The position numbers and the translations under genes are program-made. Positions 45,257 through 64,000 of a DNA stretch of 64,000 bases are shown here, piece by piece. The notes beneath the pieces are model-generated. The model saw only the letters and a list, made by a program, of their open reading frames with translations. It did no database searches and had not been told where the DNA came from. Source of the DNA: Robiginitomaculum sp. GTDB taxonomy: Bacteria; Pseudomonadota; Alphaproteobacteria; Caulobacterales; Maricaulaceae. Each line of letters begins with the position of its first letter. Position 1 is the stretch's first letter. The stretch is from the NCBI GenBank assembly GCA_021776565.1, contig JAJFFQ010000034.1, forward strand, positions 1 to 64,000, in the 5' to 3' direction.

Positions 45257-45335
45257 GGGTTTGGCCTTTCCTACACCCGACCGGGTGAATAACGTTAGCC
45301 AAGCCTTATTGCCTTTTGCCCCAATGCACCAGTAT

Positions 45336-45349
45336 CCGGTTATAGCCAG
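45336..45349. repeat. Outer inverted repeat, left arm
   Basis: CCGGTTATAGCCAG here matches, with one mismatch, the complement of 46177-46190. The pair lies outside the terminal repeats of the 45394-46163 element and may mark an older structure into which that element jumped, or may be chance. Confidence 0.35.
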
Positions 45350-45393
45350 TGCAAAAAAACTGCACCATAGCCGCCACATAAACGCAGAGTTTC

Positions 45394-46163: not shown

Positions 46164-46176
46164 AGTTTCCTCGTTC

Positions 46177-46190
46177 CTGGCAATAACCGG
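46177..46190. repeat. Outer inverted repeat, right arm
   Basis: CTGGCAATAACCGG is the partner of 45336-45349 (13 of 14 paired). Confidence 0.35.
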
Positions 46191-46245
46191 TAAAATATGC
46201 TTTTATGCAGATCAATCACATTTGATGGTGCAATGGGGAACAGAC

Positions 46246-46675
46246 ATGAAAATGATAATTTTCTGGGTGATGAGTATCTTCACGTTGATATTCTGGGCCT
46301 TTGGCGGTGTGGATATGTATTTCACATTAACCGGTAATGAAACGTATCTGAAAGATTTCCCGCCGCAGATGATCGCCTGGATTCAGGAGTTTCCGGTTTG
46401 GCGCAAAATGCTATGGGGGCTGACTGTCCTTACCGGCACCATCGGCGGTGTGCTGCTTGTATTAAGGCGGGCATTGGCGCCTTCACTTTTGTGGGCTGCT
46501 GCAGTTTTGATGTTATTGGCCTTCGTTGGTCATGATATCTTGATGGCTGATGGCTGATGGCGTGACGTATTATGGCCAGGCCGGGCTGATCTCCAGTGCC
46601 GTGCTTATCGGGATTGCCATTATTGTGGCCTTGCATGCCAGCATGGCCATCAGGGCTAAAGGTAAAGACCGGTAA
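46246..46675 (+). pseudogene. Small membrane-protein gene frameshifted by a 7-bp tandem repeat
   Basis: The first frame (46246-46557) encodes MKMIIFWVMSIFTLIFWAFGG and two further hydrophobic spans, then stops at VGHDILMADG. The stop lies in three perfect tandem copies of TGATGGC (46541-46561). With only two copies the frame would run on through GVTYYGQAGLISSAVLIG and end at 46675, giving a four-span protein of about 140 residues. The gene therefore looks recently broken, or switched off, by one extra 7-bp unit. I recognise no family; it resembles small four-helix inner-membrane proteins. Lies between the transposon-like element and fdhD. Confidence 0.7.
46541..46561 (+). repeat. Three tandem copies of TGATGGC
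   Basis: This is a 21-bp perfect heptamer array inside the membrane-protein gene. Loss or gain of one unit shifts the reading frame, so it can act as a slippage switch. Confidence 0.95.
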
Positions 46676-46770: not shown

Positions 46771-47595
46771 CTAACCGTTCCAGACATTACCTGTAAAGAC
46801 CACCAGCGTGCCACTCCGACGATCCCATGAGGCCAGGCCCAGATTGGCTCGTTTTGCCGTATCTATGGCGCTGGCAGAGGGGGCGGAGAGCGTCAGTAGT
46901 GCATGAATACCCGCCAGCGCACATTTTTGTGCCAACTCAAACGTGCAACGGCTGGAAAGTAGGGCAAAACCCTCATGCAATTCAACGCCGTCACGGGCAC
47001 AGGCACCAATGAGCTTGTCCAGCGCATTGTGGCGGCCAATATCTTCACGCACATTGGTAATTTCACCAATGGCATTTACCCAGGCGGCACCATGAACGCT
47101 TTTATTGATGCGCCGCAAGGGTTGTTTTTTACCAAGGCTGACGGCTGCATTGCCAGCAATGTTATGTGAAATGCGCAATTGTGTATCGGGTAAGCGGGGC
47201 AGGGGCCGAATGGCATCGTCCAGGCGATCTACGCCACAAAGTCCGCACCCTGCGCGGCCAAAATGCGCTCGTCCTGATCCATGTAATTTCAAGCGTTCCA
47301 CGCGATTTTCGGGAATGGTCATATGTAGCTCTATCCCTTTTTCAAGAGAATGGATGCGTATATCCAGAAGCTCATCAGCCTGGTTGATGACCCCTTCTGC
47401 CAGGGCATAGCCAAGGGCAAAGTCATGCAAATCATCCGGGGTGGCCATCATCACAGCATGAGGGGTTTTATTATAAACCATGCCAACAGGCACTTCGGCG
47501 GGTGCGCACCAGTCAACTGTTTGCGGCTTGCCCGACCCCAGCCGGGTGGCGCGCACCATGCAATTGACCTCTTGATGCGTATTTTTACGCCCCAT
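46771..47595 (-). CDS. fdhD: Formate dehydrogenase sulfurtransferase FdhD
   Basis: This 274-residue protein delivers sulfur from IscS to the molybdenum cofactor and is needed for formate dehydrogenase activity. The catalytic cysteines are in GRAGCGLCGVD near residue 115, and DIGRHNALDKLIG and LLSSRCTFELAQKCA are family signatures. It is the last gene of the C1 cluster, 5 bp after fdsA, which makes its partner obvious. Confidence 0.93.
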   Translation of the reverse strand: MGRKNTHQEVNCMVRATRLGSGKPQTVDWCAPAEVPVGMVYNKTPHAVMMATPDDLHDFALGYALAEGVINQADELLDIRIHSLEKGIELHMTIPENRVERLKLHGSGRAHFGRAGCGLCGVDRLDDAIRPLPRLPDTQLRISHNIAGNAAVSLGKKQPLRRINKSVHGAAWVNAIGEITNVREDIGRHNALDKLIGACARDGVELHEGFALLSSRCTFELAQKCALAGIHALLTLSAPSASAIDTAKRANLGLASWDRRSGTLVVFTGNVWNG

Positions 47596-47600
47596 CGGGG

Positions 47601-50429
47601 TTATTCTGCCGCATCGATAATGGAGGGGTGATGCTCGTTATCGTGCGCGTTTTGCCAGTCTGAAAGATGGTTTGCCGGATGAATCTGAACGGCGGTGACT
47701 TTGTATTCAGGGCAGGATGTGGCCCAGTCAGATAGCTCTGTAGTGATAATGTTGGCCCCGGATTCGGGATGATGAAACGTGGTGTAGACCACGCCCGGCT
47801 GAACCCGTTCTGATATTTGCGCACGCAGGGTTGTCTCGCCCTTGCGAGAGCGGATAACCACCAGATCACCGGTGCGAATGCCGCGCATTTGTGCGTCCGA
47901 TGCATGAATTTCCAGCTCATCACGCTCGGCCCAACGCTGGTTTTGTGTGCGCCGGGTTTGCTGGCCGACATTATACTGGCTGAGCAACCGCCCGGTGGTC
48001 AGCAATAGCGGGAATTTGCGATTAGCCCTCTCTGGCGTCGGGGTGAACTCTGTCAGAATAAACAAGCCTTTCCCGCGCACAAATTCCTGTTCGTGCATAA
48101 TTGGTGTGCCATCAGGTGCATCTTTGGTGCAGGGCCATTGCACCGATCCTTTTTCATCCAGCATTGCAAAACTAACAGCACTTAAGGACGGTGAAAGACG
48201 GGCAATCTCGTCCATGATCTCAGATGCAGAGTTGTAATTCATTTCATAGCCCATGGCGGCGCTAAGGCCTGCCGTAGCCTCCCATTCGCTTAACCCCGTG
48301 GGCGAGGGGGCAACAGGACGAACGCGGTTTATGCGCCGTTCGGCATTGATAAAGGTGCCATCTTTTTCAAGAAATGACGTTCCGGGCAGAAAAACATGGG
48401 CAAAGCGAGCCGTCTCATTGAGGAATAAATCCTGAACGATAATACAGTCCATAGCGCGCAAGGCAGCCTCGACGTGCAAGGTGTTGGGGTCACTCTGGGC
48501 TATGTCCTCGCCCTGAATGTAAAGGCCTTTGAAGGTTCCACCGCAGGCGTCATCCAGCATGTTGGGGATGCGCAAACCCGGCTTGCCGTCCAGGGTGACG
48601 CCCCATTCGCCCTCAAACTGTGCCCGCGTAATGTCGTCGCTAACCGGGCGATACCCGGCGAACTCATGGGGAAAAGACCCCATGTCGCACGAGCCTTGCA
48701 CGTTGTTTTGTCCACGCATGGGGTTCACCCCAACGCCGGGCCGACCGATATTGCCTGTCGCCATGGCCAAATTAGCCATGCCCATCACCATGGTTGAACC
48801 CTGGCTGTGCTCGGTCACCCCCAGACCATAATAAATGGCAGCATTGGGTTCTTCTGCATACATGCGTGCGGCGGTGCGAATGTCCCGTGCTGCCACGCCG
48901 GTAATTTTGGCTATCGCTTCGGGTGCATTGTCTTCATGGGCAGCAAAGCGCCGCCATTGCTCGAATGATTGTGTATCGCATCGTGCCGCTACAAAATCCT
49001 CATCGACCAGGTTTTCGGTGACGATGACATGGGCGAAGGCATTGACCATGGCCACATTGGTGCCAGGTTTGAGTGCCAGATGATAATCGGCGCGAATATG
49101 CGGGGCGCTGACCAGTTCAATAGCGCGGGGATCCAGCACAATCAGTCTGGCCCCTTCGCGCAGACGTTGTTTCATCGCCGAGCCAAATACCGGGTGCGCC
49201 TCTGTGGGGTTGGCTCCGATGACCATAATGAGGTCTGCCTCGCGTACCGAGTCAAAGTTTTGTGTGCCGGCGCTCTCGCCAAATGTCTGTTTCAGGCCAT
49301 AGCCTGTAGGCGAATGACATACCCGGGCGCAGGTATCGACATTATTGTTACCAAAGGCAGCGCGGATCATTTTTTGTACCAGCCATACTTCCTCGTTGGT
49401 GCAGCGCGATGAGGTAATACCGCCAATGGCCCCTGCGCCATATTTTTCTTTTAAGGCCATCAGGCGTTTGGCAGCAAAGCTGAACGCCTTGTCCCAACTG
49501 ACCTCTTGCCAGTCATCGTCTATGGTTTCGCGGATCATTGGTTTGGTTTTGCGATCCGGGTGCGTGGCATAGCCCCAGGCAAAGCGGCCTTTGACGCAGG
49601 AATGACCATGATTGGCCTTGCCATCTTCGTCCGGCACCATGCGCACCACGGTATTGCCTTTCAGTTCTGCGCGAAACGAGCACCCAACCCCGCAATAGGC
49701 GCAGGTGGTTTTCACCACACGATCGGGAACGCCCAACTCTATGACTGACTTTTCCATCAAGGTGGCTGTGGGGCAGGCCTGTACACAGGCACCGCAGGAG
49801 ACACACTCACTATCAAAAAAGTCTGTGCCGCCAACGCTAACCTTGTTGGCAAAGCCGCGACCTTCAAGGGTTAGCGCCAGCGTACCCTGCACTTCATCAC
49901 AGGCGCGTACACAGCGGGCGCAAACAATACATTTGGCCGGATCAAAAGTGAAATACGGATTGCTCTGGTCTTTTTGGGCATCAAGATGGTTTTCACCAGC
50001 AATGCCATAACGCACATCACGTAGACCAACGCGCCCGGCCATGTCTTGCAACTCACAATCGCCATTGGCGGCGCAGGTCAGGCAATCAAGCGGATGGTCG
50101 GAAATATAAAGTTCCATCACCCCTTTACGCAAACGATTCAGGCGCGCCGTTTCAGTATGCACGACCATACCGTCCTCGGCTGGAGTGGTGCAGGAAGCTG
50201 GCGTGCCTTTGCGCCCTTCAATTTCCACCAGACAAAGACGGCAAGAACCAAGCGCCTTGAGGCTCTGGGTGGCGCACAGGCTGGGTACATCCGTGCCAAC
50301 AAGGCGTGCGGCACGCATCAATGAAGTGCCTTTGGGAACGCAAATTTCTATGCCATCAATGTTAAGCGAAACTGTTGCGACGGATGTTATTTCCGGGGTA
50401 CCCAGGTCAGTCGGTTTCAAAGTTCCCAT
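47601..50429 (-). CDS. fdsA: NAD-dependent formate dehydrogenase, alpha (molybdopterin) subunit
   Basis: This 942-residue catalytic subunit carries many cofactors. N-terminal 2Fe-2S cysteines lie in CATQSLKALGSCRLC, a His-Cys3 cluster in HPLDCLTCAANGDC, two 4Fe-4S ferredoxin clusters in CIVCARCVRAC and CVSCGACVQAC, and another in CAYCGVGCSF before the bis-MGD domain. The active site is RVCHSPTGYG with Cys, not selenocysteine, as metal ligand, so the enzyme should be the oxygen-tolerant Fds type. It oxidises formate to CO2 and passes electrons to FdsB for NAD+ reduction. In this cluster it finishes the oxidation of the methyl group. Confidence 0.94.
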   Translation of the reverse strand: MGTLKPTDLGTPEITSVATVSLNIDGIEICVPKGTSLMRAARLVGTDVPSLCATQSLKALGSCRLCLVEIEGRKGTPASCTTPAEDGMVVHTETARLNRLRKGVMELYISDHPLDCLTCAANGDCELQDMAGRVGLRDVRYGIAGENHLDAQKDQSNPYFTFDPAKCIVCARCVRACDEVQGTLALTLEGRGFANKVSVGGTDFFDSECVSCGACVQACPTATLMEKSVIELGVPDRVVKTTCAYCGVGCSFRAELKGNTVVRMVPDEDGKANHGHSCVKGRFAWGYATHPDRKTKPMIRETIDDDWQEVSWDKAFSFAAKRLMALKEKYGAGAIGGITSSRCTNEEVWLVQKMIRAAFGNNNVDTCARVCHSPTGYGLKQTFGESAGTQNFDSVREADLIMVIGANPTEAHPVFGSAMKQRLREGARLIVLDPRAIELVSAPHIRADYHLALKPGTNVAMVNAFAHVIVTENLVDEDFVAARCDTQSFEQWRRFAAHEDNAPEAIAKITGVAARDIRTAARMYAEEPNAAIYYGLGVTEHSQGSTMVMGMANLAMATGNIGRPGVGVNPMRGQNNVQGSCDMGSFPHEFAGYRPVSDDITRAQFEGEWGVTLDGKPGLRIPNMLDDACGGTFKGLYIQGEDIAQSDPNTLHVEAALRAMDCIIVQDLFLNETARFAHVFLPGTSFLEKDGTFINAERRINRVRPVAPSPTGLSEWEATAGLSAAMGYEMNYNSASEIMDEIARLSPSLSAVSFAMLDEKGSVQWPCTKDAPDGTPIMHEQEFVRGKGLFILTEFTPTPERANRKFPLLLTTGRLLSQYNVGQQTRRTQNQRWAERDELEIHASDAQMRGIRTGDLVVIRSRKGETTLRAQISERVQPGVVYTTFHHPESGANIITTELSDWATSCPEYKVTAVQIHPANHLSDWQNAHDNEHHPSIIDAAE

Positions 50430-50438
50430 AAGCTTTTC

Positions 50439-51974
50439 CTATTTCGCCGCTACGTTTTGCTTCTCGGCAAAATCGTCCGGAAAGTGCAGTATAGCAGATT
50501 TTACCGGTATCGGTGTCATTGAACCCATGGCACAGGCAGAGCCATCCACCATCACCTCGCAAAGATCATCTACAAGGGTCAGGTCAGGCGTATCACTGGC
50601 CAGAGCCTCAGCGCCCCGTACCGAACCAATGCGACATGGCGTGCATTTGCCGCAGCTCTCATGAGCACAAAATTCAAACGCATAACGGGCTTGCTGGCGC
50701 ATGTCGGTGGTTTCATTAAAGACCACAATGCCGCCATGACCAATGCCAGCACCAATCGCTGTCATGGCTTCATAGTCCAGTGGTGTATCGTACAGTGAAG
50801 GCGGCAGATAAGCCCCTAACGGGCCACCGACTTGTATGACCTTTACTGGCAGGCCGGAGCGGGTGCCACCACCAAAACCCTCTAGCAGTTCGCGTAAAGA
50901 GCGCCCAAAGGGTAATTCTATAAGCCCGCCAAATTTCACATCGCCCGCAAGCTGAAAGGGTAAGGTGCCGGTGGAACGACCCATGCCCAGACCTGCGTGC
51001 CATTGACCACCTTTTGCCAATATGTCCGCCGTAGCGCACAGGGTGATAACATTATTGATGAGCGTTGGTTTGCCATGCAGCCCTTCCAGGGCAGGTAAAG
51101 GCGGTTTTGAACGAACGATACCACGTTTGCCCTCTACGCTTTCCATTAGTGCCGTTTCTTCGCCGCACACATATGAGCCACCGCCAACAAACACGGTGAG
51201 GGTAAAGTCTTTGCCACTGCCTTGTATATCCTTACCCAGCCAGTTGTTTTGTGTGGCAATTATTATGGCTTTTTCCAACACCCGTATTGATACAGGATAT
51301 TCAGAGCGCAAATAGATGATGCCTTCACGCGCACCGGTTGCCAGGCCGGCAATGGTCATGCCTTCGATCAGGCGAAATGGATCACCTTCCATAATCAGGC
51401 GATCAGAATATGTGCCTGAATCGCCTTCATCAGCATTGCATAAAATATACTTTTGCGGCCCCTTCGCGCCCAAAACTGTGCGCCATTTTATCGCCGCCGG
51501 GAACCCGGCACCGCCCCGCCCGCGCAGGCCTGAAGTTTGTACTTGGTCAATGATAGCGTCTGGTTTCAAGCCAAGTGCAACGCGTAACCCGCTAAAGCCG
51601 TCATGGGATTCATAGGCCGCAATATCGCAAGGGTCATAAAGACCGCATGTCTTGAAAATATAACGCTCCTGGGCTTTCAAATAAGGAATATTCTCTGTGA
51701 GGCCAAGGCATTTTTCATGTTTTTTCCCTTGCAAGAAACCCGATATAAACAATCCCGATACGTCGTTCATTGTGATATTACCATAGGCCATGCGCCCGGC
51801 CTTGGTTTCCACCTCAACCAATGGTTCCGCCCAACAAAGACCACGTGAACCGTTGCGAATAATTTCTACTTTTTCACCTCGGCTTTTAGCGACATTGGCA
51901 ATGGTGATGGCTACATCATCGGCACCCAGAGCGATGGCTAGCATGTCAGCAGGAATGAAGATGCGCGTGGTCAT
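50439..51974 (-). CDS. fdsB: NAD-dependent formate dehydrogenase, beta (FMN/NADH) subunit
   Basis: This 511-residue NuoF-like subunit has an N-terminal thioredoxin-like part, then the FMN/NAD site SGLRGRGGAGFPAAIKW and CNADEGDSGTYSDR, GAYICGEE-type VGGGSYVCGEETALMES, and the 4Fe-4S ligands ESCGKCTPCRIG with a further Cys in DGSACAMG. It receives electrons from FdsA and reduces NAD+. It precedes fdsA by 9 bp; a palindromic repeat separates it from fdsG. Confidence 0.94.
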   Translation of the reverse strand: MTTRIFIPADMLAIALGADDVAITIANVAKSRGEKVEIIRNGSRGLCWAEPLVEVETKAGRMAYGNITMNDVSGLFISGFLQGKKHEKCLGLTENIPYLKAQERYIFKTCGLYDPCDIAAYESHDGFSGLRVALGLKPDAIIDQVQTSGLRGRGGAGFPAAIKWRTVLGAKGPQKYILCNADEGDSGTYSDRLIMEGDPFRLIEGMTIAGLATGAREGIIYLRSEYPVSIRVLEKAIIIATQNNWLGKDIQGSGKDFTLTVFVGGGSYVCGEETALMESVEGKRGIVRSKPPLPALEGLHGKPTLINNVITLCATADILAKGGQWHAGLGMGRSTGTLPFQLAGDVKFGGLIELPFGRSLRELLEGFGGGTRSGLPVKVIQVGGPLGAYLPPSLYDTPLDYEAMTAIGAGIGHGGIVVFNETTDMRQQARYAFEFCAHESCGKCTPCRIGSVRGAEALASDTPDLTLVDDLCEVMVDGSACAMGSMTPIPVKSAILHFPDDFAEKQNVAAK

Positions 51975-51982
51975 GACATATT

Positions 51983-52052
51983 CCTCATGCTGAGCTTATC
52001 GAAACATAGGGTGCGTATATTTCTTTCATCCTTCGATAAATTCAGGATGAGG
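51983..52052. repeat. Palindromic repeat inside the operon (CCTCATGCTGAGCTTATCGAA type)
   Basis: CCTCATGCTGAGCTTATCG at 51983-52001 pairs imperfectly with CGATAAATTCAGGATGAGG at 52034-52052 across a 32-base loop. It is like the abundant intergenic repeat with CTTCGAYAA...TCAGGATGAGG found in many alphaproteobacteria. It fills the 91 bp between fdsG and fdsB and could stabilise or attenuate the mRNA. Confidence 0.75.
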
Positions 52053-52065
52053 GCGGCTGCATAGA

Positions 52066-52545
52066 TCATTCGCTCATCTCCGCCAGCCTGGCATCAAACG
52101 CGGCGGCATCAAGATGCGCGGCGGGCTTGCCATCGATCAATGCTGCCGGGCCGTTGGCGCAAAGACCAAGGCAATAAACACCTTCCAGGGTCAGTTGGCC
52201 GTCATTTGAGGTTTCCCCCAGTGCCAGGCCGGTTTTTTTACAGGCGTGAGCGGTTGTCGTACGCGCCCCAACCGCCTGACAAGCCTCTGCCTGACACAGA
52301 CGAATTGTATGGCGCCCATGTGGGGATGTACGAAAATCTTCATAGTATGAGATTACGCCCAGTACTTCAGCGCGGCTGCGCGCATAGGTGTGCATAAGAG
52401 GGCCGATCGCTGCATCGTCCACATAGCCGAACGTGTCGACAAGCGCCCGCAAGGCAGAGGTTAACGCACCGCCTTGCCTCTGGCATTGCACCATCAGGCC
52501 CAAAGCTTTTGTTTCATCCCAATGGCCTGAATTTTTGGCCATCAC
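52066..52545 (-). CDS. fdsG: NAD-dependent formate dehydrogenase, gamma (2Fe-2S) subunit
   Basis: This 159-residue NuoE-like subunit has a helical N-terminus and the four 2Fe-2S cysteines in [10 protein letters not shown] (84 and 89) and CLGLCANGP (125 and 129). It relays electrons in the Fds complex. Its ATG overlaps the folD stop by 4 bp, so folD and fds genes are translationally coupled, a direct link between THF chemistry and formate oxidation. Confidence 0.92.
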
Positions 52546-53438
52546 ACACCCTCCGGTACAGGCCAGTTCATACGCGCACAGGCTGCCAATACCGTATTGC
52601 GCAACAAACAGGCAATCGTCATGGGGCCAACACCGCCTGGCACCGGGGTAATAGCCGCCGCATTTTTGCTGGCGGCATCAAAATCTACATCCCCAACAAG
52701 GCGCGTTTTACCTTCCCCGCGCTCTGGTGCATCAATCCGGTTGATACCCACATCTATAACACAAGCACCGGGTTTAACCCAATCGCCTTTTATCATTTGC
52801 GCGCGGCCCACCGCCGCCACCAGTATATCGGCTGAGTGGCATAATGCTGGTAAGTCCCGGGTGCGGGAATGGGCGATGGTGACGGTGCAGTTTTGTTCAA
52901 GAAAGAGGTGTGCAGCCGGTTTGCCAACCAGTATGGAGCGTCCGACAATCACACAGAATTTCCCGGTTAGATCGCCCAGCACATCACGCGCCAGTATGAC
53001 GCAACCGGTTGGCGTGCAAGGTCGCAGACCTGGCTTGCCCAGCACCAAGCGTCCGGCACTGGCCTCCGTCAGACCATCCACATCCTTGGCCGGGTCTATT
53101 TGTTCGATCACAATGGCTTCCTGAATGTGCTTTGGTAAAGGTAACTGTACCAATATGCCATCGACATCAGGATCAGCATTCAGGCTTTGCACGAGCGCGA
53201 TCAACGTTTCCTCAGAAGCATCGGCATCCAGACGGTGCTCAATGGAACGCATTCCCACCTCTTGCGTCTGGCGGGCCTTGTTGCGTACATAGACATGACT
53301 GGCCGGATCATCACCGACCAGCACTACAGCCAGCGCGGGTGCGCGACCATGATCGGCTTTTATTTTGGCAACCGCATCACCAAGGCGCGCCCGCAGTGCA
53401 GTGGCAACAGCTTTGCCGTCAATAAGATTTTCATTCAT
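52542..53438 (-). CDS. folD: Methylene-THF dehydrogenase / methenyl-THF cyclohydrolase
   Basis: This 298-residue bifunctional enzyme converts 5,10-methylene-THF to 10-formyl-THF with NADP+. The catalytic lysine is in [13 protein letters not shown] near residue 56, VQLPLPKHI is the substrate site near 100, VIGRSxxVGKP-type [15 protein letters not shown] is the NADP loop, and [13 protein letters not shown] is the C-terminal signature. In this cluster it links MetF to Fhs. It lies 56 bp after the mttB stop. Confidence 0.95.
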
Positions 53439-53494
53439 AAAAACATTTCCTTCATTGTGGCCAAAACCTATTCTGGGTTATCCTGCCAAGATGC

Positions 53495-55027
53495 TTAGCT
53501 TATGTTGGAATCTTCAAAGCTGCCCTTCCTGTCCTTCATGAACTGCAATAGCCTTGCATCCAGTTCCGGATCCAGTTCTGGCGGCACATAATCAGCAAGC
53601 ATTTGTTTGTATATTTTTTCTGCTCTCATTTGCGCGTCCTGCTCTCCGTCTTCCTGCCATTGTTCATAGCTGTTATTGTCTGAAATGGCAGAGCTGTAGA
53701 ATGCAGTCTTGAAATTGGCTTGCGTATGCTCACACCCCAGAAAATGCTGGCCCGGCCCAACTTCACTAATGGCATCAAGCGCCTGTCCGTTTTGCGACAT
53801 ATCAACACCATTGGCATAAACCGCCATCATGCCCGCCTGATCTGTGTCCATAATAAATTTTTCATAGCCCATGGCCAGCCCGCCCTCGAGCCAACCTGCG
53901 GTATGAAGCATGAAATTAACCCCGGCCATCAGCCCGGCCTGTAACGTATTAGCGGCTTCATAGGCGGCTTGCGCGTCAGGAACCTTTGATGAAGTAAATC
54001 CGCCTCCACTGCGAAACGGTACACCAAGTCTGCGTGCCAAAGCCGCACCGATATTTATCACCAATGAGGCCTCTGGTGTACCAAAGGTTGGTGCGCCGGA
54101 TTGCATGGACATTGAGCTGACAAAATTGCCATAAATAACCGGTGCACCAGGGCGTATCAGTTGTGTCAGTGCCATGCCGACCATGCCTTCGGCCAAACTC
54201 TGCGCGGCAACGGCGGCAACCGTTACAGGTGACATGGCACCGGCCACAATAAACGGGCTTACCATTGCCGCCTGATTATGCCGCGCATAAACCTTCAACG
54301 CGCCAAGCATTACAGAATCAAAGGTCAGCGGCGAATTGGCGTTAATCAGATTAACCAGCACACAATTATCTTCAACGAAGTCTTCACCAAAAACGATCTT
54401 GACCATGGACACAGAATCTTCGGCGCGCTGCGGCGCGGTAACTGACCCCATGAAGGCTTTATCAGAATACTTTATATGGCTGTAAACCATATCAAAATGG
54501 CGCTTGTTTACCGGTAGATCCACCGGCTCGCATACCGTACCACCTGAGTGGTGCAGGGTTGGTGACATATAAGCCAGCTTGATGAAATTTTGAAAATCAC
54601 TGATGGTTGCATATCGTCGCCCCTCTTCACGTGAGTAGATAAAAGGTGACCCATAGGCTGGCACAAGCACTGTATTGTTACCGCCTATGACAACGTTGTT
54701 GTCTGAATTTCGTGCATGTTGTGTAAAGAGAGCAGGTGCATTTTTTTGAATAATTTCTCGGCACATACCGCGCGGGAACTGCAACCGCTCACCATCGGCA
54801 CTGGCACCGGCAGCTACAAAAAGCTTAATGGTTTCCGGGTCTTCTTTTATGTCTACACCAACGGTCTCAAGTATGGTGTCGGCATTATGCTCAATTTGTG
54901 CCAGATCAGCCTTACCCAACACCTCATAGGGTTGAATTTTACGGACAATAAATGGTGCTAATTTTGGCTTAACCTCTACCCCCTGTTTTCTGCCCCGGCG
55001 TCCACCTCTTCTTGCTCTTTGTGCCAT
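53495..55027 (-). CDS. mttB: MttB-family corrinoid methyltransferase, non-pyrrolysine
   Basis: This 510-residue protein belongs to the trimethylamine methyltransferase superfamily (COG5598). Recognisable parts are GVDIKEDPETIKLF, YGSPFIYSREEGRRYATISDFQNF, GAPTFGTPEASLVI and SGGGFTSSKVPDAQAAYEA. The reading frame has no in-frame TAG, so it is of the pyrrolysine-free kind; the studied examples demethylate glycine betaine (MtgB), proline betaine or carnitine rather than trimethylamine. It should hand the methyl to the corrinoid protein at 60473. The first 22 residues are strongly basic (MAQRARRGGRRGRKQG). The ATG overlaps the RACo stop (TAATG), with AGGAG upstream. The exact substrate cannot be told. 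Confidence 0.9.
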   Translation of the reverse strand: MAQRARRGGRRGRKQGVEVKPKLAPFIVRKIQPYEVLGKADLAQIEHNADTILETVGVDIKEDPETIKLFVAAGASADGERLQFPRGMCREIIQKNAPALFTQHARNSDNNVVIGGNNTVLVPAYGSPFIYSREEGRRYATISDFQNFIKLAYMSPTLHHSGGTVCEPVDLPVNKRHFDMVYSHIKYSDKAFMGSVTAPQRAEDSVSMVKIVFGEDFVEDNCVLVNLINANSPLTFDSVMLGALKVYARHNQAAMVSPFIVAGAMSPVTVAAVAAQSLAEGMVGMALTQLIRPGAPVIYGNFVSSMSMQSGAPTFGTPEASLVINIGAALARRLGVPFRSGGGFTSSKVPDAQAAYEAANTLQAGLMAGVNFMLHTAGWLEGGLAMGYEKFIMDTDQAGMMAVYANGVDMSQNGQALDAISEVGPGQHFLGCEHTQANFKTAFYSSAISDNNSYEQWQEDGEQDAQMRAEKIYKQMLADYVPPELDPELDARLLQFMKDRKGSFEDSNIS

Positions 55028-56994: not shown

Positions 56995-57395
56995 TACCGA
57001 ATACCACCTTCGGGGTATTGATCGTATTGAGGTAAATCATCTGAGATTTTGTAATAATTTGGCTTTTCGCCAACAAAGATGTGGCCCTTGACATCCAGGC
57101 CAACAGGGTCAGCAAAATTGCCGATGAGAATACTGATCGAGCCGCTATCTTTCTTGTTCCAGAACATAAGACTATTGCATGTTGTGCAATGCCCGGACTC
57201 TGTCTGGCTGGAAACAGGTGACCAGCTAATATCGCCAGCATATTCCAGATTGTTTTGCGAAACACCTGCAGCTGCAACAATATGACCGGAAAGGTGCTGG
57301 CATTGTTTGCAATGGCAATACCAGATATCCGAAACATCTTCGGCGGCAAACGTTACTTCGCCGCATAGACAGCTGCCATGGTAAATTTTATGCAC
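56994..57395 (-). CDS. GFA-family (glutathione-dependent formaldehyde-activating enzyme-like) protein
   Basis: From GTG 57393-57395 this gives 133 residues; the longer frame from 57488 overlaps the methyltransferase gene by about 100 bp and the added residues do not fit. The zinc-binding pattern of the GFA/CENP-V fold is present: GSCLCGEVTF, WYCHCKQCQHLSG and HCTTCNSLMFW. The founding member speeds formaldehyde-glutathione adduct formation, but most members have no known role. Its place inside a C1 operon suggests formaldehyde capture or a structural zinc role. It overlaps the upstream methyltransferase stop by 8 bp. Confidence 0.72.
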   Translation of the reverse strand: MHKIYHGSCLCGEVTFAAEDVSDIWYCHCKQCQHLSGHIVAAAGVSQNNLEYAGDISWSPVSSQTESGHCTTCNSLMFWNKKDSGSISILIGNFADPVGLDVKGHIFVGEKPNYYKISDDLPQYDQYPEGGIR

Positions 57396-58284
57396 TACGT
57401 CGGCCTCTGCGTCCACGCTGCCTGCCTTGGCCCTCGGCGGGTGGCTGGCGATAGGTTTTAATCCAGTTGGCACAATGCGGATCGACACCGTTCAGCATAT
57501 CAGCGGCCTTGATCGCTGGCACCAGCCCCTCATGCAACGGGTTCAGGATTGCTGATGTCATACCGGCGCTGGCCAGCATGGGCAGAAAGGCATTGTTGAT
57601 GGCATGGCGGTTCGGCAAACCAAAACCGATATTTGATGCACCGCAGGTTGTATTGACTTTAAGTTCCGATCGCAGACGGCGAATAAAATGGAAAACGTCC
57701 CGGCCAGCCGTGCTGATCGCCCCGATGGGCATGACCAGGGGATCAACCACAATGTCTTCGGGTTTAATACCATGATCGGCAGCCCGTTCAACAATGCGTT
57801 TGGCAATTTCAAAACGCTCATCGGGGTCTTCGGAAATGCCTGTTTCGTCATTTGATATGGCAACGACTGCGGCACCGTATTTTTTGACCAATGGTAATAC
57901 CTGCTCCATCACCTCGTCTTCTGCGGTGGTAGAATTGACAAGCGCCCGACCCTTATAAACCTTCAGGCCAGCTTCCAGTGCGTTGATGATCGATGAATCA
58001 ATACAAAGCGGTACATCTGTAATGGATTGAACCAGCTGGATCACATCGGCCAGAATTTTTGGCTCGTCCGCCAAAGGAATACCGGCATTAACATCCAGCA
58101 CCTGCGCCCCCGCCGCCACTTGCGCCAGCGCGTCTTGCTCGACCAATGAATAATCCCCCTCTTTCATCTGTGCCGCCAGCAATTTGCGACCCGTGGGGTT
58201 TATCCGCTCGCCAATCATGACAAAGGGCTGGTCAAACCCTATCACAACCTCTTTTGTGGCTGAGCTTATTACGGTTCTGGTCAT
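57388..58284 (-). CDS. Methyltetrahydrofolate:corrinoid methyltransferase (MtgA/MtrH/AcsE-like)
   Basis: This 298-residue pterin-binding TIM-barrel protein shows MIGERINPTGRK, GAQVLDVNAG, VPLCIDSSI, ALVNSTTAEDE, DIVVDPLVMPIG and CGASNIGFGLPNRHA, the family's THF-binding set. In Desulfitobacterium the equivalent MtgA takes the methyl from the corrinoid protein to THF; here it should do the same, giving methyl-THF for MetF. The C-terminal tail GRQRGRRGRRSA is strongly basic and not part of the fold. It follows metF by 34 bp and overlaps the GFA gene. Confidence 0.88.
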   Translation of the reverse strand: MTRTVISSATKEVVIGFDQPFVMIGERINPTGRKLLAAQMKEGDYSLVEQDALAQVAAGAQVLDVNAGIPLADEPKILADVIQLVQSITDVPLCIDSSIINALEAGLKVYKGRALVNSTTAEDEVMEQVLPLVKKYGAAVVAISNDETGISEDPDERFEIAKRIVERAADHGIKPEDIVVDPLVMPIGAISTAGRDVFHFIRRLRSELKVNTTCGASNIGFGLPNRHAINNAFLPMLASAGMTSAILNPLHEGLVPAIKAADMLNGVDPHCANWIKTYRQPPAEGQGRQRGRRGRRSA

Positions 58285-58318
58285 TATTTATTTCCTTGTA
58301 AAAAATATTTTGCCAGCA

Positions 58319-59350
58319 TTAACTGACAGTCCCGATAGAGGTTTCCATTTGCTCCGGTGCCCAGGGTTGTCTTGTCCCCAGCACACCCGAACGTTTTACG
58401 ACATCCGCAACGTATTTTTCCTGGCGGTATGCCATCACGTGAATACCGCTAATGCCGTTGATTTCTTTTATTTGCTGCATCAACTCGACACAGATATTGC
58501 GCCCTTCCTGTTTGGGGTCTTTGGCGGCATCCAGCCGGTGAATAATGGTATCTGGAATATGCACGCCAGGTACATTATCCCGTAACCATTGTGCGGTTCT
58601 TGCAGAAGCCAACACCCCGACACCGATGAGGATAAAGCGGCGCTCTGTCAGTCCCAAATCCACGGCCTGTGCCATGAATGATTTGAGTAAATCCAGGTCA
58701 AAGCAGTATTGCGACTGGATAAAATCAGCACCGGCCTCGATTTTTTTAGCCAATTGATCGACGCGGTTTTCAACGGGTGGTACGAACGGGTTTATTGTTG
58801 CACCCATAAAAAGGCTGGGAGAGGTATCCAGCGCCCGACCGCTTAAAAACCGCTGTTCATCACGCAGGGTTCTTACGGTTTGCAGCAATGAAATGCTATC
58901 AAGATCAAACACTGGCTTGGCTTCGGGGTGATCCCCCGCACTGACATCATCGCCAGTCAGGCACAGCAAATTGGTTACGCCAAGCGCCGCGGCACCTAGC
59001 ACATCACCCTGAATGGCGATTCGATTCCGATCCCGGCATGAGACCTGTATGACAGGCGAATAGCCAATGCGTGTCAAAATTGCACAAACAGCCAGACTGG
59101 ACATATGGCAGTGTGCGCCAGAGCCATCTGTGGCATTGATCGCATCAACATAGCCATCAAATAAATGCGCACGTTTTAGAATTTCATCTGGATCGGCAGA
59201 ATCCGGCGGGGCAATTTCCGTGGTAATGGCAAAATGTCCGGCACGCAAAACCCGCTCAAACCGACCATGAGAAACATGACCCGCCAGTTGCGGCAAGGGA
59301 TCCCCCGGGTTAAGGCCGTATTCAGCGGTTATGTTGGTAGGCTTACCCAT
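58319..59350 (-). CDS. metF: Methylenetetrahydrofolate reductase, MetF-like
   Basis: This 343-residue flavoprotein of the MTHFR TIM-barrel family has the catalytic Glu in ITTEIAPPDSAD near 40. The folate/FAD-site segments are DGSGAHCHMSSLA, QVSCRDRNRIAIQGD, LLCLTGDDVSAGDHPEA and FIQSQYCFDLD. In this pathway it should run toward oxidation, methyl-THF to methylene-THF. It overlaps the MetV-like gene by 8 bp, and the pair likely forms a MetFV complex as in acetogens. A second anabolic metF is presumably elsewhere in the genome. Confidence 0.9.
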   Translation of the reverse strand: MGKPTNITAEYGLNPGDPLPQLAGHVSHGRFERVLRAGHFAITTEIAPPDSADPDEILKRAHLFDGYVDAINATDGSGAHCHMSSLAVCAILTRIGYSPVIQVSCRDRNRIAIQGDVLGAAALGVTNLLCLTGDDVSAGDHPEAKPVFDLDSISLLQTVRTLRDEQRFLSGRALDTSPSLFMGATINPFVPPVENRVDQLAKKIEAGADFIQSQYCFDLDLLKSFMAQAVDLGLTERRFILIGVGVLASARTAQWLRDNVPGVHIPDTIIHRLDAAKDPKQEGRNICVELMQQIKEINGISGIHVMAYRQEKYVADVVKRSGVLGTRQPWAPEQMETSIGTVS

Positions 59351-59783
59351 TACGCGCCAGCCTCAACCATGCGGAAGAGCCACTGTCTCTATAATCCACA
59401 GCAAACTGAATGTCCTTGATCGCACCACCATCTTTCATCCGCGCCGCGCCATTCCAGGCCTCCACCCAGACACAGCGCATGTCAGGTTTTACCTCACACA
59501 TACCGTTTTCCCGCACCCCGCCACAGGGGCCGTTGCGGATGGTTTTTGGGCAATTCATCGGGCAACTCATGCCGGTTTTGGATAAAATACAATCGCCGCA
59601 CATTTGACAATCAAACAAAAAGCCTTTGGTCATGGCTTCCAATGCAGTGACGGGCCGATCAAGGTGGCGGCCAAATATTTTATTTATGCCGCGCAAAATC
59701 GACAAAAGAGCAGGGTTTACAGCATTGTAAATAATTTCAAGGCCACGCGAATGGCGAACTGACCATAGCCTAGCACGATACAT
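59343..59783 (-). CDS. MetV-like zinc/FeS partner of methylene-THF reductase
   Basis: This 146-residue protein carries the MTHFR C-terminal cysteine domain: CQMCGDCILSKTGMSCPMNC, then CPKTIRNGPCGG and MCEVKPDMRCVWVE, the pattern of MetV and of the C-terminal part of some MetF proteins. MetV forms a complex with MetF and helps electron entry or exit. I chose ATG 59781-59783, eight bases after AGGGA; an ATG nine bases upstream is the alternative. Either overlaps the DUF1638 gene slightly. The frame extending to 59864 would overlap it by 95 bp. Confidence 0.85.
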   Translation of the reverse strand: MYRARLWSVRHSRGLEIIYNAVNPALLSILRGINKIFGRHLDRPVTALEAMTKGFLFDCQMCGDCILSKTGMSCPMNCPKTIRNGPCGGVRENGMCEVKPDMRCVWVEAWNGAARMKDGGAIKDIQFAVDYRDSGSSAWLRLARNG

Positions 59784-60471
59784 GGTCTTCATCCCTGGTA
59801 TTTTCAGAATGTTTTTGCTGTTGTTGGCGCGCAGAAAAGCCCAGCCCTTGCGCGAAGGCCTCAAGGTCTATCGCAAGGTCACCATACCCCACTTTTTTGT
59901 AGACAAAATTCAGGCCAAGCAGATCGGCGGCCTCTGCAGCTTTTTTCTGCAAGTCCGCGTTTTCAGTCTGGGCCAGATAAACCACCTGCGTATAATTGCA
60001 AAAATAAACACTGGTCAGTTCCGGATAGCGATCCAGCCCCAGTCCCTTCATGACCAGGCGTTCAAAGTTTTTCACCAGATAATCGGTCAGAAAAAAACTG
60101 CCTATATCCGCATCAACAATGCGTTCAAATTGCGCAGCGCCCGCAAAAAATTCATAGCAATGTGCGCCTGGCAATCGCTCTGCATTGTATTGCTCTAATA
60201 CGGCGTCCAGTGCGCCGCCTGTACCGCACTCCCCATAGGCAACAAGCACCCGGTCATATTCATCCCGGCACTCTTTAAGCAAAGCGTCTACACCGGGGGC
60301 AATTTTTTGGGGCGTATTATGAAATGCGGCGGGCAGGCATCGCAGTTCAAGTGCCTCGTCTGGAATTCCAAGATGGCGGCGGAGATAAACAATTTCCTTT
60401 GCCAGAGCGCCGCAGGCGATGACAAGGCATTTATGACGCGCCGTTGTCATGATATGTGCGCGCCCGGACAT
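59770..60471 (-). CDS. DUF1638 protein, conserved with corrinoid methyltransferase systems
   Basis: This 233-residue protein of unknown function contains LVIACGALAKEIVYL, LRCLPAAFHNTPQKI, YGECGTGGALDAVL, HCYEFFAGAAQF and SVYFCNYTQVVYL. The repeated Cys, His and Glu could bind a metal or corrinoid. Family members are common beside mttB-like and mtbC-like genes in methanogens and bacteria, so a role in cobalamin handling or loading, or in corrinoid protein repair, is an inference from context. It starts 1 bp after the corrinoid-protein stop codon. Confidence 0.75.
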   Translation of the reverse strand: MSGRAHIMTTARHKCLVIACGALAKEIVYLRRHLGIPDEALELRCLPAAFHNTPQKIAPGVDALLKECRDEYDRVLVAYGECGTGGALDAVLEQYNAERLPGAHCYEFFAGAAQFERIVDADIGSFFLTDYLVKNFERLVMKGLGLDRYPELTSVYFCNYTQVVYLAQTENADLQKKAAEAADLLGLNFVYKKVGYGDLAIDLEAFAQGLGFSARQQQQKHSENTRDEDHVSC

Positions 60472-60472
60472 G

Positions 60473-61159
60473 TCAGGCGTTCTTGCCCATGATTACCTTG
60501 GCCAATTCGGCACTCATTGCTGCATCTCGACCGTAAGAGTGTGCGTTTATGGCATCGGAAAATTCCTGATTAAGTGGTGCGCCACCAACCATAACCGGCA
60601 GTTCTTTGAGGATATTGCGCTTGTCCAGCTCTTCAATCACAAGGCCCATATAGGGCATGGTTGTGGTCAAAAGAGCCGACATGCCAAGAATGTCCGGCTT
60701 GTGTTTGTCTATAGCCTCCAGATAATTTTCAACGGGATTATTGATCCCCAGGTCAATCACTTCAAACCCGGCACCTTCCAGCATCATGCCAACCAGGTTT
60801 TTGCCAATATCGTGGATGTCGCCCTTCACAGTGCCAATGACATATTTCCCGACGCTGGTCTGGGCATCGCTGGCGGCCAGTATCGGGCGAAGCAGACCCA
60901 TGCCATTTTTCATTGCCCCGGCGCACTGCAACACCTCGGGTACAAATAAAATACCGTCACGAAAGTCAACTCCGACAATACGCATTGCTTCTACAAGCAC
61001 GTCGCTCAGGATTAAATTGGCTGCCCACTTCCGTTCAAGAAGAATTTCAACACCCTCAAATACTTCATCCTTGAGACCATCATATAGATCATCCTTGATC
61101 TGGGCGACCAGATCATCGTCATTCAAATCCATAAGGATGATTTCTTCTTCGTCACTCAT
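60473..61159 (-). CDS. Cobalamin-binding (corrinoid) methyl carrier protein, MtbC/MttC/MtgC-like
   Basis: This 228-residue protein has an N-terminal helical cap domain (about 15-95) and a B12-binding Rossmann domain with VKGDIHDIGKNLVGMML, in which the His is the lower cobalt ligand, and later MSALLTTTMPYM and VMVGGAPLN. It carries the methyl group between the MttB-type enzyme and the THF methyltransferase. Its first 24 residues hold ten acidic residues and one lysine (SDEEEIILMDLNDDD), the opposite charge to the tails of its partners. It follows fhs by 22 bp. Confidence 0.92.
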   Translation of the reverse strand: MSDEEEIILMDLNDDDLVAQIKDDLYDGLKDEVFEGVEILLERKWAANLILSDVLVEAMRIVGVDFRDGILFVPEVLQCAGAMKNGMGLLRPILAASDAQTSVGKYVIGTVKGDIHDIGKNLVGMMLEGAGFEVIDLGINNPVENYLEAIDKHKPDILGMSALLTTTMPYMGLVIEELDKRNILKELPVMVGGAPLNQEFSDAINAHSYGRDAAMSAELAKVIMGKNA

Positions 61160-61181
61160 AGTTCATTCCTGTGCCTCAACA

Positions 61182-62882
61182 TTAAGATAGACCTACGATC
61201 TGGCCGGTTTCATCCAGACCGATATTCAGCGCCGATGGCTTTCTGGGCAGGCCCGGCATGGTCATGACGGTGCCACAAACGGCCACCACGAAGCCCGCCC
61301 CAGCTGATAACCTGACCTCGCGCACCTCAAGCGTATGGCCTTCTGGCGCGCCGCTAAGGCCAGGGTCTGATGAGAAACTGTAAGGGGTTTTGGCAATGCA
61401 AACCGGCAAATGGCCAAAGCCAAGTTTTTCAAATTCTTCAAGGCCTTTGGCTGCAGGCGCACTAATCGAAACATCCCCGGCACGATAAAATTGACTGGCA
61501 ACCGCCTCAATTTTGTCCTTCAGGCTGGCCTCGTCTTCGTACAAAAATTTGATCTTTGGTACGCCTTTCTCAATTTGTTTTATCACAGCATGGGCCAAAT
61601 CCTGGGCACCTTTGCCGCCTTCCGCCCAATGTCTGGAAACGGCCATAGATACGCCTTGTTCTGCACAAACGCGCTCGATTACCGCGATCTCTTCTTGGGT
61701 ATCGGCAACAAAATGATTGAGTGCTATGACCGGTGTTACGCCAATGTGTTTCATGTTTTCAATATGGCGAACAAGATTGACGCAGCCACGATCCACAGCC
61801 TCAGGGTTTGAAGCACCAAGGGCGTCTTTGGTAACGCCGCCCTGCATTTTCATTGCCCGGATAGTGCAAACCAATACGATAGCATCAGGGCGCAAACCGG
61901 ATTGTCGGCACTTAATATCAAGAAATTTTTCCGCGCCCAGATCTGCACCAAAACCCGCTTCGGTTACGACAACATCACAAAGCGACAATGCTGTTTTAGT
62001 AGCCATAACACTGTTGCAGCCATGGGCAATATTGGCAAACGGCCCCCCATGTATAAAAGCCAGATTGTGTTCTATGCTTTGAACCAGATTGGGCTGAAGC
62101 GCATCTTTGAGTAAAACGGCCATGGCCCCATCAGCGCCAAGATCACGCGCCGTAACCGGTGTCATGTCGTATGTGCGCGCAACAATTATATCGCCAAGTC
62201 GGCGTTGCAGATCTGCCATGTCAGTCGCAAGGCAGAATATCGCCATGATTTCTGACGCGACCGTAATGTCAAAACCATTTTCGCGCGGCACCCCATGCAC
62301 AGGGCCGCCAAGACCAACAACAATATTGCGCAATGCCCTGTCATTCATGTCTACAACCCGGCGCCAGCTGATACGGCGCGGATCAATACCCAGCTCGTTA
62401 CCCCAATGCATGTGATTATCAAGCATCGCAGAGAGCAGGCTGTGCGCCGCCGTAATGGCATGGAAATCACCATTAAAATGAAGGTTTATGTCTTCCATCG
62501 GGATAACTTGCGCACGCCCGCCGCCCGCTGCACCACCCTTCATGCCAAAGCACGGGCCAAGAGAAGGCTCGCGCAGACAAACCATGGATTTGACGCCAAT
62601 TGCGTTCAAACCGTCATTCAGGCCGACACTAGTGGTGGTTTTGCCCTCGCCAGCAGGGGTTGGTGTTACCGCAGTGACCAAGACCAGCTTGCCTTTGGGA
62701 CGATCTGCAAGCGATTGAATAAAAGCCAGCGAAAGTTTGGCTTTATGATGCCCATAAGGAATTAAAGCCTCTGGTGAAATACCCAGACGATCTTTTGCCA
62801 ATGACAAAACAGGCTTCATGTTTGCTGCACGGGCAATGTCAATATCTGGCGCACCCGGTGCGGGAAGATTATCTTGTGTCAC
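61182..62882 (-). CDS. fhs: Formate-tetrahydrofolate ligase
   Basis: This 566-residue enzyme interconverts formate + ATP + THF and 10-formyl-THF. The P-loop is [14 protein letters not shown], and [26 protein letters not shown] and [11 protein letters not shown] are family signatures. Working backward it releases formate and makes ATP, which suits a methyl-oxidation route. I chose GTG 62880-62882, which precedes [11 protein letters not shown] as in other Fhs proteins. It is overlapped by a 6-codon frame with a strong ribosome binding site (62879-62899). It is the first gene of the cluster. Names such as ftfL are also used. Confidence 0.93.
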
Positions 62883-62899
62883 GTTTCCCTGACGGCCAT
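62879..62899 (-). CDS. Possible 6-codon leader peptide (MAVRET) coupled to fhs
   Basis: ATG at 62897-62899 is placed eight bases after a perfect GGAGG (62908-62912), while the fhs start has only a weak site. The short frame ends in TGA that overlaps the fhs GTG (GTGA at 62879-62882). Ribosomes finishing the leader could restart on fhs. Real translation of the leader is untested. Confidence 0.4.
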
Positions 62900-62984
62900 T
62901 TGACCGTCCTCCCTTTTTGTGTGTGAGGCTTATGAATTGGGATTTTACCCGTACCCCATATCCTCTCAACATAGGGAGTAGAAA

Positions 62985-63013
62985 AATATAGTATTTTCTT
63001 CAAGCGACGTTAA
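62985..63013 (-). promoter_or_regulatory. Candidate promoter of the C1 operon
   Basis: On the minus strand TTAACG (63008-63013) and TATATT (62985-62990) are separated by 17 bp, giving a leader of about 95 nt before fhs. It lies in the region shared with the divergent GbdR-like gene, and the imperfect -35 suits activator control. No regulator site was identified. Confidence 0.5.
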
Positions 63014-63155
63014 GTTTAGTAATTACGACATTGCCGTGTGATTGTCTGAGAACAAATGGTATCAGCACTTGTAACAGGCAGGGCATGAAAAATGATGGTT
63101 CTTATCCGAGCTTATCAACACGTATCTGCTGTTCAAAATAATCTGGGACATTAAA

Positions 63156-64000
63156 ATGTTTGGCAATCATACTCAAAAAAAACCTCAAACCATCGGTTTT
63201 TTGCTGTTGCCGCATTTTTCGATGATCGCCTTCACATCTTGCATTGAGCCATTGCGTGCAGCCAATAGAATGAACGAGGGTAATCTCTATCAATGGAAAA
63301 CCTATAGCGTTGACGGTGACAAGGTGGCCGCCAGTAATGGGGTGAGTATTACAACAGATGCTGCCTTTACGGATACCATTGATGCTGATGTTGATGTTCT
63401 TTTTGTTTGCGCGGGCCTTCAAGCCAGGGATTACCGTAATTCGTCGATGACCGCCAAGCTGCAAGCCTATGCCCGGGCCGGTGTGCCCCTTGGCGGTGTT
63501 TGCACCGGTTCTATTGCGTTAGCTAATGCTGGATTGCTGGACAAGTGTCGTTGCACAATACACTGGGAGAACATTGAAGGGTTTGTTGAGGTTTATCCCG
63601 GGCTTGATGTGACCGCCACCTTGTTTGAAATTGATGGCGACAGGTATACCTGCTCTGGTGGCACGGCGCCGCTGGATATGATGATTTACTCCATTGCGAA
63701 GGATCATGGCAAACCCCTTGCCGCCAGTGTTGCAGAGCAAATGCTACACAGTCCGGTACGTCAGCCCCACGATCATCAACGCACGTCCATTCAATACAGA
63801 ACTGGTATCAGCCATCCAAAGCTATTAGCGGCCATTGCTTATATGGAGGCCTATATTGAAACGCCGCTTGGTCTGCCTGAATTTGCTAAACGCCTGAATA
63901 TTTCCCTAAGGCAGCTGGAAAGACTTTTTCGCTCCTTGTTGGGGACAACACCGTCCCGGTATTATCTGGCACTTCGCTTGCAGCGTGCCAGACAATTGTT
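63156..64000 (+). CDS. GbdR-like GATase1-AraC transcriptional regulator, 3' end cut by window edge
   Basis: The frame from ATG 63156 stays open to the window end, about 281 residues. The N-terminal DJ-1/PfpI-like domain (IGFLLLPHFSMIAFTSCIEPLRAAN; GGVCTGSIALANAG near the position of the nucleophile elbow) is the ligand-binding part of GlxA-type regulators. The AraC helix-turn-helix region begins near residue 230 (LPEFAKRLNISLRQLERLFRSLLG). The best-known member is GbdR, which senses glycine betaine or dimethylglycine in Pseudomonas; ArgR- and CdhR-type members sense other amines. Its divergent placement suggests it activates the fhs-to-fdhD cluster. Confidence 0.85.
   Translation, partial: MFGNHTQKKPQTIGFLLLPHFSMIAFTSCIEPLRAANRMNEGNLYQWKTYSVDGDKVAASNGVSITTDAAFTDTIDADVDVLFVCAGLQARDYRNSSMTAKLQAYARAGVPLGGVCTGSIALANAGLLDKCRCTIHWENIEGFVEVYPGLDVTATLFEIDGDRYTCSGGTAPLDMMIYSIAKDHGKPLAASVAEQMLHSPVRQPHDHQRTSIQYRTGISHPKLLAAIAYMEAYIETPLGLPEFAKRLNISLRQLERLFRSLLGTTPSRYYLALRLQRARQL

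Follow-up and report, generated by a model that had tools for sequence, protein, structure and literature searches.

The stretch of DNA analyzed here (the window) comprises positions 1 to 64,000 of contig JAJFFQ010000034.1 from Robiginitomaculum sp. (assembly GCA_021776565.1), and carries toward its right-hand end 14 co-directional genes (46771 to 62972, minus strand) that very probably code for an aerobic, B12-dependent glycine betaine demethylase together with a complete tetrahydrofolate (THF) route for burning the methyl group. We infer the substrate, the direction of flux, and the ATP gain; gene content, order, conservation, linkage, and co-occurrence are observed directly. Related aerobic bacteria have already been shown to use this route, and the operon is an unusually complete further example, a compact one from the Robiginitomaculum/Hellea group in which all steps from the first methyl transfer to CO2 are predicted within a single operon.

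Operon layout, predicted pathway, and conservation

All 14 frames are present in the open reading frame listing, and Pfam and NCBIfam scans place each in its expected family, in agreement with an earlier proposal, made from the sequence alone (the original prediction), of a leftward cluster for methyl transfer and one-carbon oxidation. The 12 genes named there belong to the families given, although the DUF1638 and GFA-family genes had been left unnamed. The order of transcription is fhs, mtgC, DUF1638, metV, metF, mtgA, gfa, raco, mttB, folD, fdsG, fdsB, fdsA, and fdhD. Spacing between genes is at most 91 bp and several neighbors overlap, which makes a single transcript likely.

In the predicted pathway, a BCCT transporter would import glycine betaine, and the MttB-family protein (MtgB) would pass one methyl group to cob(I)alamin on the corrinoid-binding protein MtgC, leaving dimethylglycine. 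A MeTr-type protein would move the methyl group from methyl-MtgC to THF, yielding methyl-THF, and RACo, with DUF1638, would re-reduce oxidized corrinoid. MetF/MetV would then convert methyl-THF to methylene-THF, FolD would take this to 10-formyl-THF, and Fhs, run backwards, would release formate with a presumed gain of ATP; FdsGBA, matured by FdhD, would oxidize the formate with NAD+ to CO2 and NADH. The other two methyl groups would be delivered as methylene-THF by dimethylglycine dehydrogenase (DMGDH) and sarcosine oxidase, encoded elsewhere in the genome, and would enter at FolD.

Relatives of the MttB-family protein were sought across genome contigs, and the best 80 of 284 confirmed loci (62 to 90% identical) were kept; by record title, 25 of them are alphaproteobacterial ("alpha-type") and 55 are not. 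Some of the loci depend on one another, as L004/L005 and L021/L022 are each a pair from one metagenome-assembled genome (MAG). The nearest loci are in MAGs named Robiginitomaculum, Marinicaulis, Henriciella, Emcibacter, and Hellea, and in the isolates Maritalea myrionectae and Hellea balneolensis. The order fhs-mtgC-DUF1638-metV-metF-mtgA-gfa-raco-mttB is repeated in alpha-type loci, and the cluster is therefore not a chance arrangement. Where alpha-type loci extend at least 8.5 kb upstream of mttB (n = 15), mtgC, DUF1638, and mtgA are each present in all 15, fhs in 14, metV, metF, and gfa in 13 each, raco in 12, and a gbdR match in 8. The folD-fdsGBA-fdhD segment lies directly behind mttB in 1 of the 25 alpha-type loci (L002, from genome G017, a member of the same genus as the window genome), the sole case among the best 80 of 284 loci, and fdsA/fdsB-like genes are near mttB in 3 of the 55 others (L058, L063, and L070). 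The fully closed operon is seen in two genomes of one genus.

The MttB-family methyltransferase and its predicted substrate

The mttB-family gene (53495 to 55027, on the minus strand like all 14 genes; PF06253, 719 bits) is the single MTTB gene in the window genome, and we predict that it codes for a pyrrolysine-free glycine betaine:corrinoid methyltransferase (MtgB). Its frame has no internal stop and no in-frame TAG, terminates at TAA, and has phenylalanine at the column occupied by pyrrolysine in Methanosarcina MttB, all as expected for the pyrrolysine-free type that had been proposed. Identity with the pyrrolysine MttB that acts on trimethylamine was rejected, given the missing TAG, 25% identity to the pyrrolysine enzyme 7xcl, and a TIGR02369 score of 244 bits, below the cut-off of 525. 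The protein is 45% identical to MtgB of Desulfitobacterium hafniense (DhMtgB), for which docking predicts glycine betaine binding by Y94, N199, R309, and H345 (PMC6855144). These four residues are kept in 81 of 81 aligned rows (the window and the 80 loci) and differ in pyrrolysine MttB. In the PDB there are only five related chains at E 1e-5, and a quick-method tree of 91 rows has DhMtgB, 4yyc, and pyrrolysine MttB as its only solved references; very long outgroup branches meet in this tree, and we used its inner alpha clade alone.

Four lines of evidence, not fully independent of one another, make glycine betaine a well-supported prediction for the substrate: genes in the same genome, linkage in G017 and L003, co-occurrence, and the conserved residues. 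Profile searches find a BCCT transporter, SoxG, SoxA, SoxB, and DMGDH on host contig C35, where a small frame at the expected SoxD place is taken as SoxD from its size and place; almost the entire DMGDH aligns with dimethylglycine dehydrogenases of solved structure, and a BetI-type regulator adjoins it. In G017, one block of ∼34 kb (C19:155378-189532) holds a BetI-like gene, DMGDH, sox genes, BCCT, gbdR, and all 14 genes of the operon, together with a sulfotransferase-like gene and a TonB receptor. DMGDH is directly behind mttB in L003 (84% identical MttB), and a DMGDH-type gene scoring at least 400 bits is present in the fetched stretches of 22 of the 80 loci, at least 1,000 bits being reached in 12 of the 22. 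Among 61 genomes (our own, G000, and 60 relatives), MttB orthologues of at least 77% identity are present in five (G000, G017, G028, G035, and G036; that of G036 is interrupted by a contig end, and G028 is also locus L020), and DMGDH orthologues of at least 79% identity are present in the same five (Fisher's test with G046, described below, counted: 1e-6). The glycine betaine substrate, at first a guess, is thus backed by uptake and later demethylation genes, by the G017 block, and by this co-occurrence.

The host genome gave no match to Ring_hydroxyl_A (Rieske-type) in a search that was positive in 4 of 14 control genomes, and at 96% genome completeness this absence is not proof. The betaine monooxygenase GbcA is, we assume, a member of this family, and because no Ring_hydroxyl_A gene was found, the first methyl group most likely leaves through the corrinoid route. 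Two COX1 matches above cut-off make aerobic respiration of the host likely. For this genome, the original proposal of pyrrolysine-free corrinoid methyl transfer feeding THF-linked oxidation to formate is supported.

Several points weigh against glycine betaine. F353 of DhMtgB, discussed as near the substrate, is glycine here, and all 7 of the more distant plasmid-borne homologues aligned likewise retain R309 and H345, so these two residues may mark carboxylated quaternary amines in general. The DMGDH, Sox, and BCCT genes are on a different contig from the operon in the window genome, no DMGDH-type gene of at least 400 bits is found in 58 of the 80 fetched stretches, many of them short, and sequences of MtpB, MtcB, and MtyB are not among the tree rows. 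One genome (G046) shows a DMGDH-like match, split in two (76% and 59%), without MttB, and another (G016) has a distant MttB (37%) without DMGDH; Fisher's test for co-occurrence also ignores relatedness among the 61 genomes. In the sister-clade locus L026, an enolase-superfamily (MR/MLE) gene (11920 to 13002), of a type that is presumably linked to proline betaine catabolism, lies on the opposite strand behind a 74%-identical mttB, and the substrate may for this reason vary among relatives, with others using other betaines.

We consider it unlikely, on this evidence, that the MttB-family protein of the window acts on a different carboxylated quaternary amine (such as proline betaine, carnitine, or gamma-butyrobetaine), with the glycine betaine linkage reflecting a shared one-carbon route. 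The two residues kept in all seven distant homologues would fit such a substrate, as would the mandelate-racemase-type genes that adjoin MttB paralogues of other clades and, likewise, the sister-clade mttB of L026, and published Eubacterium relatives are reported to use other betaines (PMC12478193); however, the window genome has no second MTTB gene, and glycine betaine uptake and later demethylation genes are in the same genome and contiguous with the operon in G017. It is very unlikely that MtgC and the THF methyltransferase work mainly in methionine synthesis, as the split synthase of Phaeobacter does, and only secondarily in demethylation. Ruegeria pomeroyi MtgC and MtgD do perform both jobs (PMC12478193), and methionine-related fitness in Phaeobacter inhibens is what led to the RamA-like protein and DUF1638 (PMC5764234), but the operon here has oxidation genes and no homocysteine-binding module, and MetH reactivation and homocysteine-binding domains, in two frames on contig C12, point to a separate methionine synthase that the host probably has. 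Because of these MetH domains, the corrinoid set is probably devoted to demethylation here, unlike that of R. pomeroyi. There is next to no likelihood that the pathway runs in reverse, reducing CO2 or formate to methyl-THF for biosynthesis like the methyl branch of acetogens. Fhs, FolD, MetF/MetV, and formate dehydrogenase also serve that reductive branch and are the same enzymes, but the cluster lacks acetyl-CoA synthase and is linked to a methyl donor enzyme, a GbdR-like activator, and glycine betaine genes, and its host genome gives two strong matches to COX1.

Some further features of these loci concern transport and paralogy. A TonB-dependent receptor and a TPR-sulfotransferase-type gene lie between the sox genes and BCCT both in the window genome (L094, 6368 to 10953, on its own C35) and in G017 (L123, 1 to 5840, and L125, 16052 to 17944), and TonB receptors are near mttB in L003 and L030 too. 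In G035 (C13:15459-19411), a second MttB (49% identical) directly adjoins a 35%-identical DMGDH-like gene, possibly a paralogous pair for another methylated substrate.

Known systems and the predicted steps of methyl oxidation

The novelty implied in the original prediction does not stand, as this B12-dependent route has already been shown in aerobic R. pomeroyi. In the work of Mausz et al. 2025 (PNAS, PMC12478193), proteomics and mutants show glycine betaine demethylation to depend on MtgC and MtgD, with mtgC and mtgD mutants failing to grow on glycine betaine even with methionine; metF2, RamA, and DUF1638 are induced, and colocated clusters are described in many marine bacteria. The window operon resembles these MtgBCD systems of R. 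pomeroyi and marine Proteobacteria in its pyrrolysine-free PF06253 MtgB, separate MtgC, and pterin-binding MtgD (mtgA here is of the same family and in the same place), in the RamA-like protein, DUF1638, and second divergent metF linked to the methyltransferase, in the predicted feeding of a THF-linked oxidation in an aerobic alphaproteobacterium, and in the presence in the genome of DMGDH and sarcosine oxidase steps, often nearby in the known systems. It differs in being a single operon that adds Fhs, FolD, FdsGBA, and FdhD and includes the GFA-fold gene and MetV, and in the retention of a separate MetH, where a dual methionine role with MetH loss is usual, if not universal, in the known systems. 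MetH retention does not exclude membership, as 28 of 239 metH genomes also carry MtgBCD genes (PMC12478193). A term search finds neither "formate" nor "MetV" in the main text of PMC12478193, and our literature search found no paper on a Robiginitomaculum glycine betaine methyltransferase. What is left as new is minor, namely the formate-dehydrogenase extension, the retained MetH, the electron acceptor of MetF/MetV, and the GFA-fold protein beside corrinoid genes; of these, the acceptor in an aerobe and the reason why the GFA-fold protein travels with corrinoid enzymes become testable here.

Other systems share parts of this scheme. D. hafniense MtgBCA moves the methyl group via a corrinoid protein to THF (PMC7154762), and the likeness lies in MtgB and its four predicted binding residues, whereas the window operon has a MeTr-like THF methyltransferase and a host with cytochrome oxidase genes. 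Of the Desulfitobacterium MtgB/MtgA parallel first drawn for the window, the likeness to MtgA is not supported. The chloromethane pathway of Methylobacterium extorquens CM4, likewise an aerobic alphaproteobacterium (cmuA/cmuB/metF2/folD/purU; PMC3621897), also takes a methyl group through corrinoid to THF, and a divergent MetF2 together with FolD carries its oxidation on to formate, but its methyl donor enzyme is CmuA and PurU hydrolysis takes the place of Fhs. SAR11 oxidizes glycine betaine methyl groups and has THF, Fhs, and FdsB-type formate dehydrogenase genes (Sun et al. 2011, PMC3160333), although the first methyl group is there predicted to leave via a Bhmt enzyme without corrinoid (PMC12478193).

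The THF methyltransferase gene (mtgA, 57388 to 58284) matches PF00809 (Pterin_bind) and NF005719 (368 bits, cut-off 259). Its product has 17 PDB matches at E 1e-5, of MeTr and MetH types, and the DhMtgA structures 6SJ8/6SK4 are not among them; by these comparisons it is of the MeTr/MetH type, with no detectable likeness to Desulfitobacterium MtgA. The corrinoid-binding protein gene (mtgC, 60473 to 61159) has PF02310 (B12-binding) and PF02607 domains and a DIHDIG motif, which we take to be a sign of corrinoid binding; its top NCBIfam model is NF047996 (MtgC), at 186 bits and below the cut-off of 370. The RACo/RamA-like reductive activator (55027 to 56994; PF14574, PF17651, PF17650, and Fer2) and the DUF1638 protein (59770 to 60471; PF07796, 96 bits), a putative reactivation partner by its literature role, are placed in corrinoid reactivation by analogy with mutant fitness in Phaeobacter (PMC5764234) and proteomics in R. 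pomeroyi (PMC12478193). The RamA-like protein and DUF1638 were picked out in P. inhibens through methionine-related fitness, and the passages of PMC5764234 on DUF1638 make no specific proposal for it.

MetF/MetV is the weak step of the pathway and also counts against the oxidative reading, because oxidation of methyl-THF with NAD+ is uphill, judged by the potentials, and no obvious electron partner for MetF/MetV is encoded in the operon. The metF gene (58319 to 59350; PF02219, 114 bits) codes for a second, divergent methylene-THF reductase and predicted methyl-THF oxidase that shares 23% identity with a MetF-like frame close to metH, and metV (59343 to 59864; PF12225, 93 bits) codes for a Cys-rich DUF5981 protein whose start codon is uncertain (candidates 59864, 59792, and 59783). 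The remaining C1 enzymes are a formate-THF ligase (fhs, 61182 to 62972; PF01268 [FTHFS], 866 bits; NF010030, 882 bits, cut-off 652) and a methylene-THF dehydrogenase/cyclohydrolase (folD, 52542 to 53438; NF010785, 459.6 bits, cut-off 396). The formate dehydrogenase genes are fdsG (52066 to 52545), coding for a NuoE-like, thioredoxin-like 2Fe-2S subunit (PF01257, 104 bits) that scores 156.6 bits against the formate dehydrogenase gamma model NF004638, below its cut-off of 198; fdsB (50439 to 51974), for a NuoF-like flavin/NAD subunit (PF01512 [Complex1_51K] and PF10589); fdsA (47601 to 50429), for the NAD-type catalytic subunit (TIGR01591, 877 bits, cut-off 666), with formate dehydrogenase subunit alpha 6tg9 as its top PDB match (1395.6 bits, residues 7 to 929); and fdhD (46771 to 47595), for the sulfurtransferase accessory protein (PF02634, 192 bits; TIGR00129, 163.6 bits, cut-off 140.9).

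The GFA-fold protein, genomic setting, and regulator

Between mtgA and raco lies a gene for a GFA-fold protein with seven cysteines (56994 to 57488; PF04828, 56 bits), whose true start may be a later GTG codon (candidates 57473, 57416, and 57395). Each of the seven cysteines is kept in 27 to 29 of 30 aligned rows. The protein has no PDB sequence match at E 0.01, and its AlphaFold model (mean predicted local distance difference test score, pLDDT, of 73) is matched by Foldseek to 8ajq (E 1.5e-6), to Gfa 1x6m (E 9.9e-4), and to 3fac; it has the GFA fold with conserved cysteines that marks Gfa, the glutathione-dependent formaldehyde-activating enzyme. In 21 of the 25 alpha-type loci and 11 of the 55 others, the gene adjoins mtgA, RACo, or mttB; of those 11, 8 lie between mtgA and RACo, and the remaining 3 are weak matches that adjoin mttB. 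Given these positions, and because the pathway should make no free formaldehyde at the demethylation step, we tentatively suggest, as a possibility that is more doubtful than not, that the protein is a dedicated component, not described before, of corrinoid demethylation in aerobes. It may for example act as a thiol/zinc partner in protecting or reloading the corrinoid center, or in the RACo/MtgC cycle of cells that respire oxygen; protection from formaldehyde and such a thiol/zinc role are both possible. In seven loci (L007, L010, L018, L019, L020, L021, and L032), no RACo is seen between gfa and mttB, and gfa directly precedes mttB.

The host genome (2.9 Mb, 74 contigs, 96% complete) has the operon on a contig of 206 kb, its start lying 46.8 kb from one end. 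Although the pathway requires B12, no CbiC match was found in the genome by a search that was positive in 7 of 14 control genomes, and the organism may therefore depend on external B12 and its uptake; a B12-dependent energy route is thereby linked to a genome in which no CbiC gene was detected. The flank that carries the acyl-CoA dehydrogenase (44078 to 46557; compared with stretches L121 and L122) is on a separate contig from the operon in G017, and in G010, which is without the cluster, it runs into other genes; the operon thus occupies a variable chromosomal place.

The GbdR-like regulator gene is divergent from the operon, as originally predicted, and lies on the plus strand from 63156 to the window end at 64000, the whole gene reaching 64133; in full it scores 371.5 bits against the GbdR model NF052371, below the curated cut-off of 480. 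The gbdR-fhs gap contains a 28-bp block (63004 to 63031), a possible operator, of which G017 has an identical copy. The block has no match at up to 10 mismatches in the C35 stretches, and a shared operator or regulon is not supported, as matches elsewhere have 9 to 10 mismatches, no better than the best in 10 resampled 20-kb sequences (9 to 11). Two weak matches to the block, in L003 and L008, are near or within the gbdR-fhs gap.

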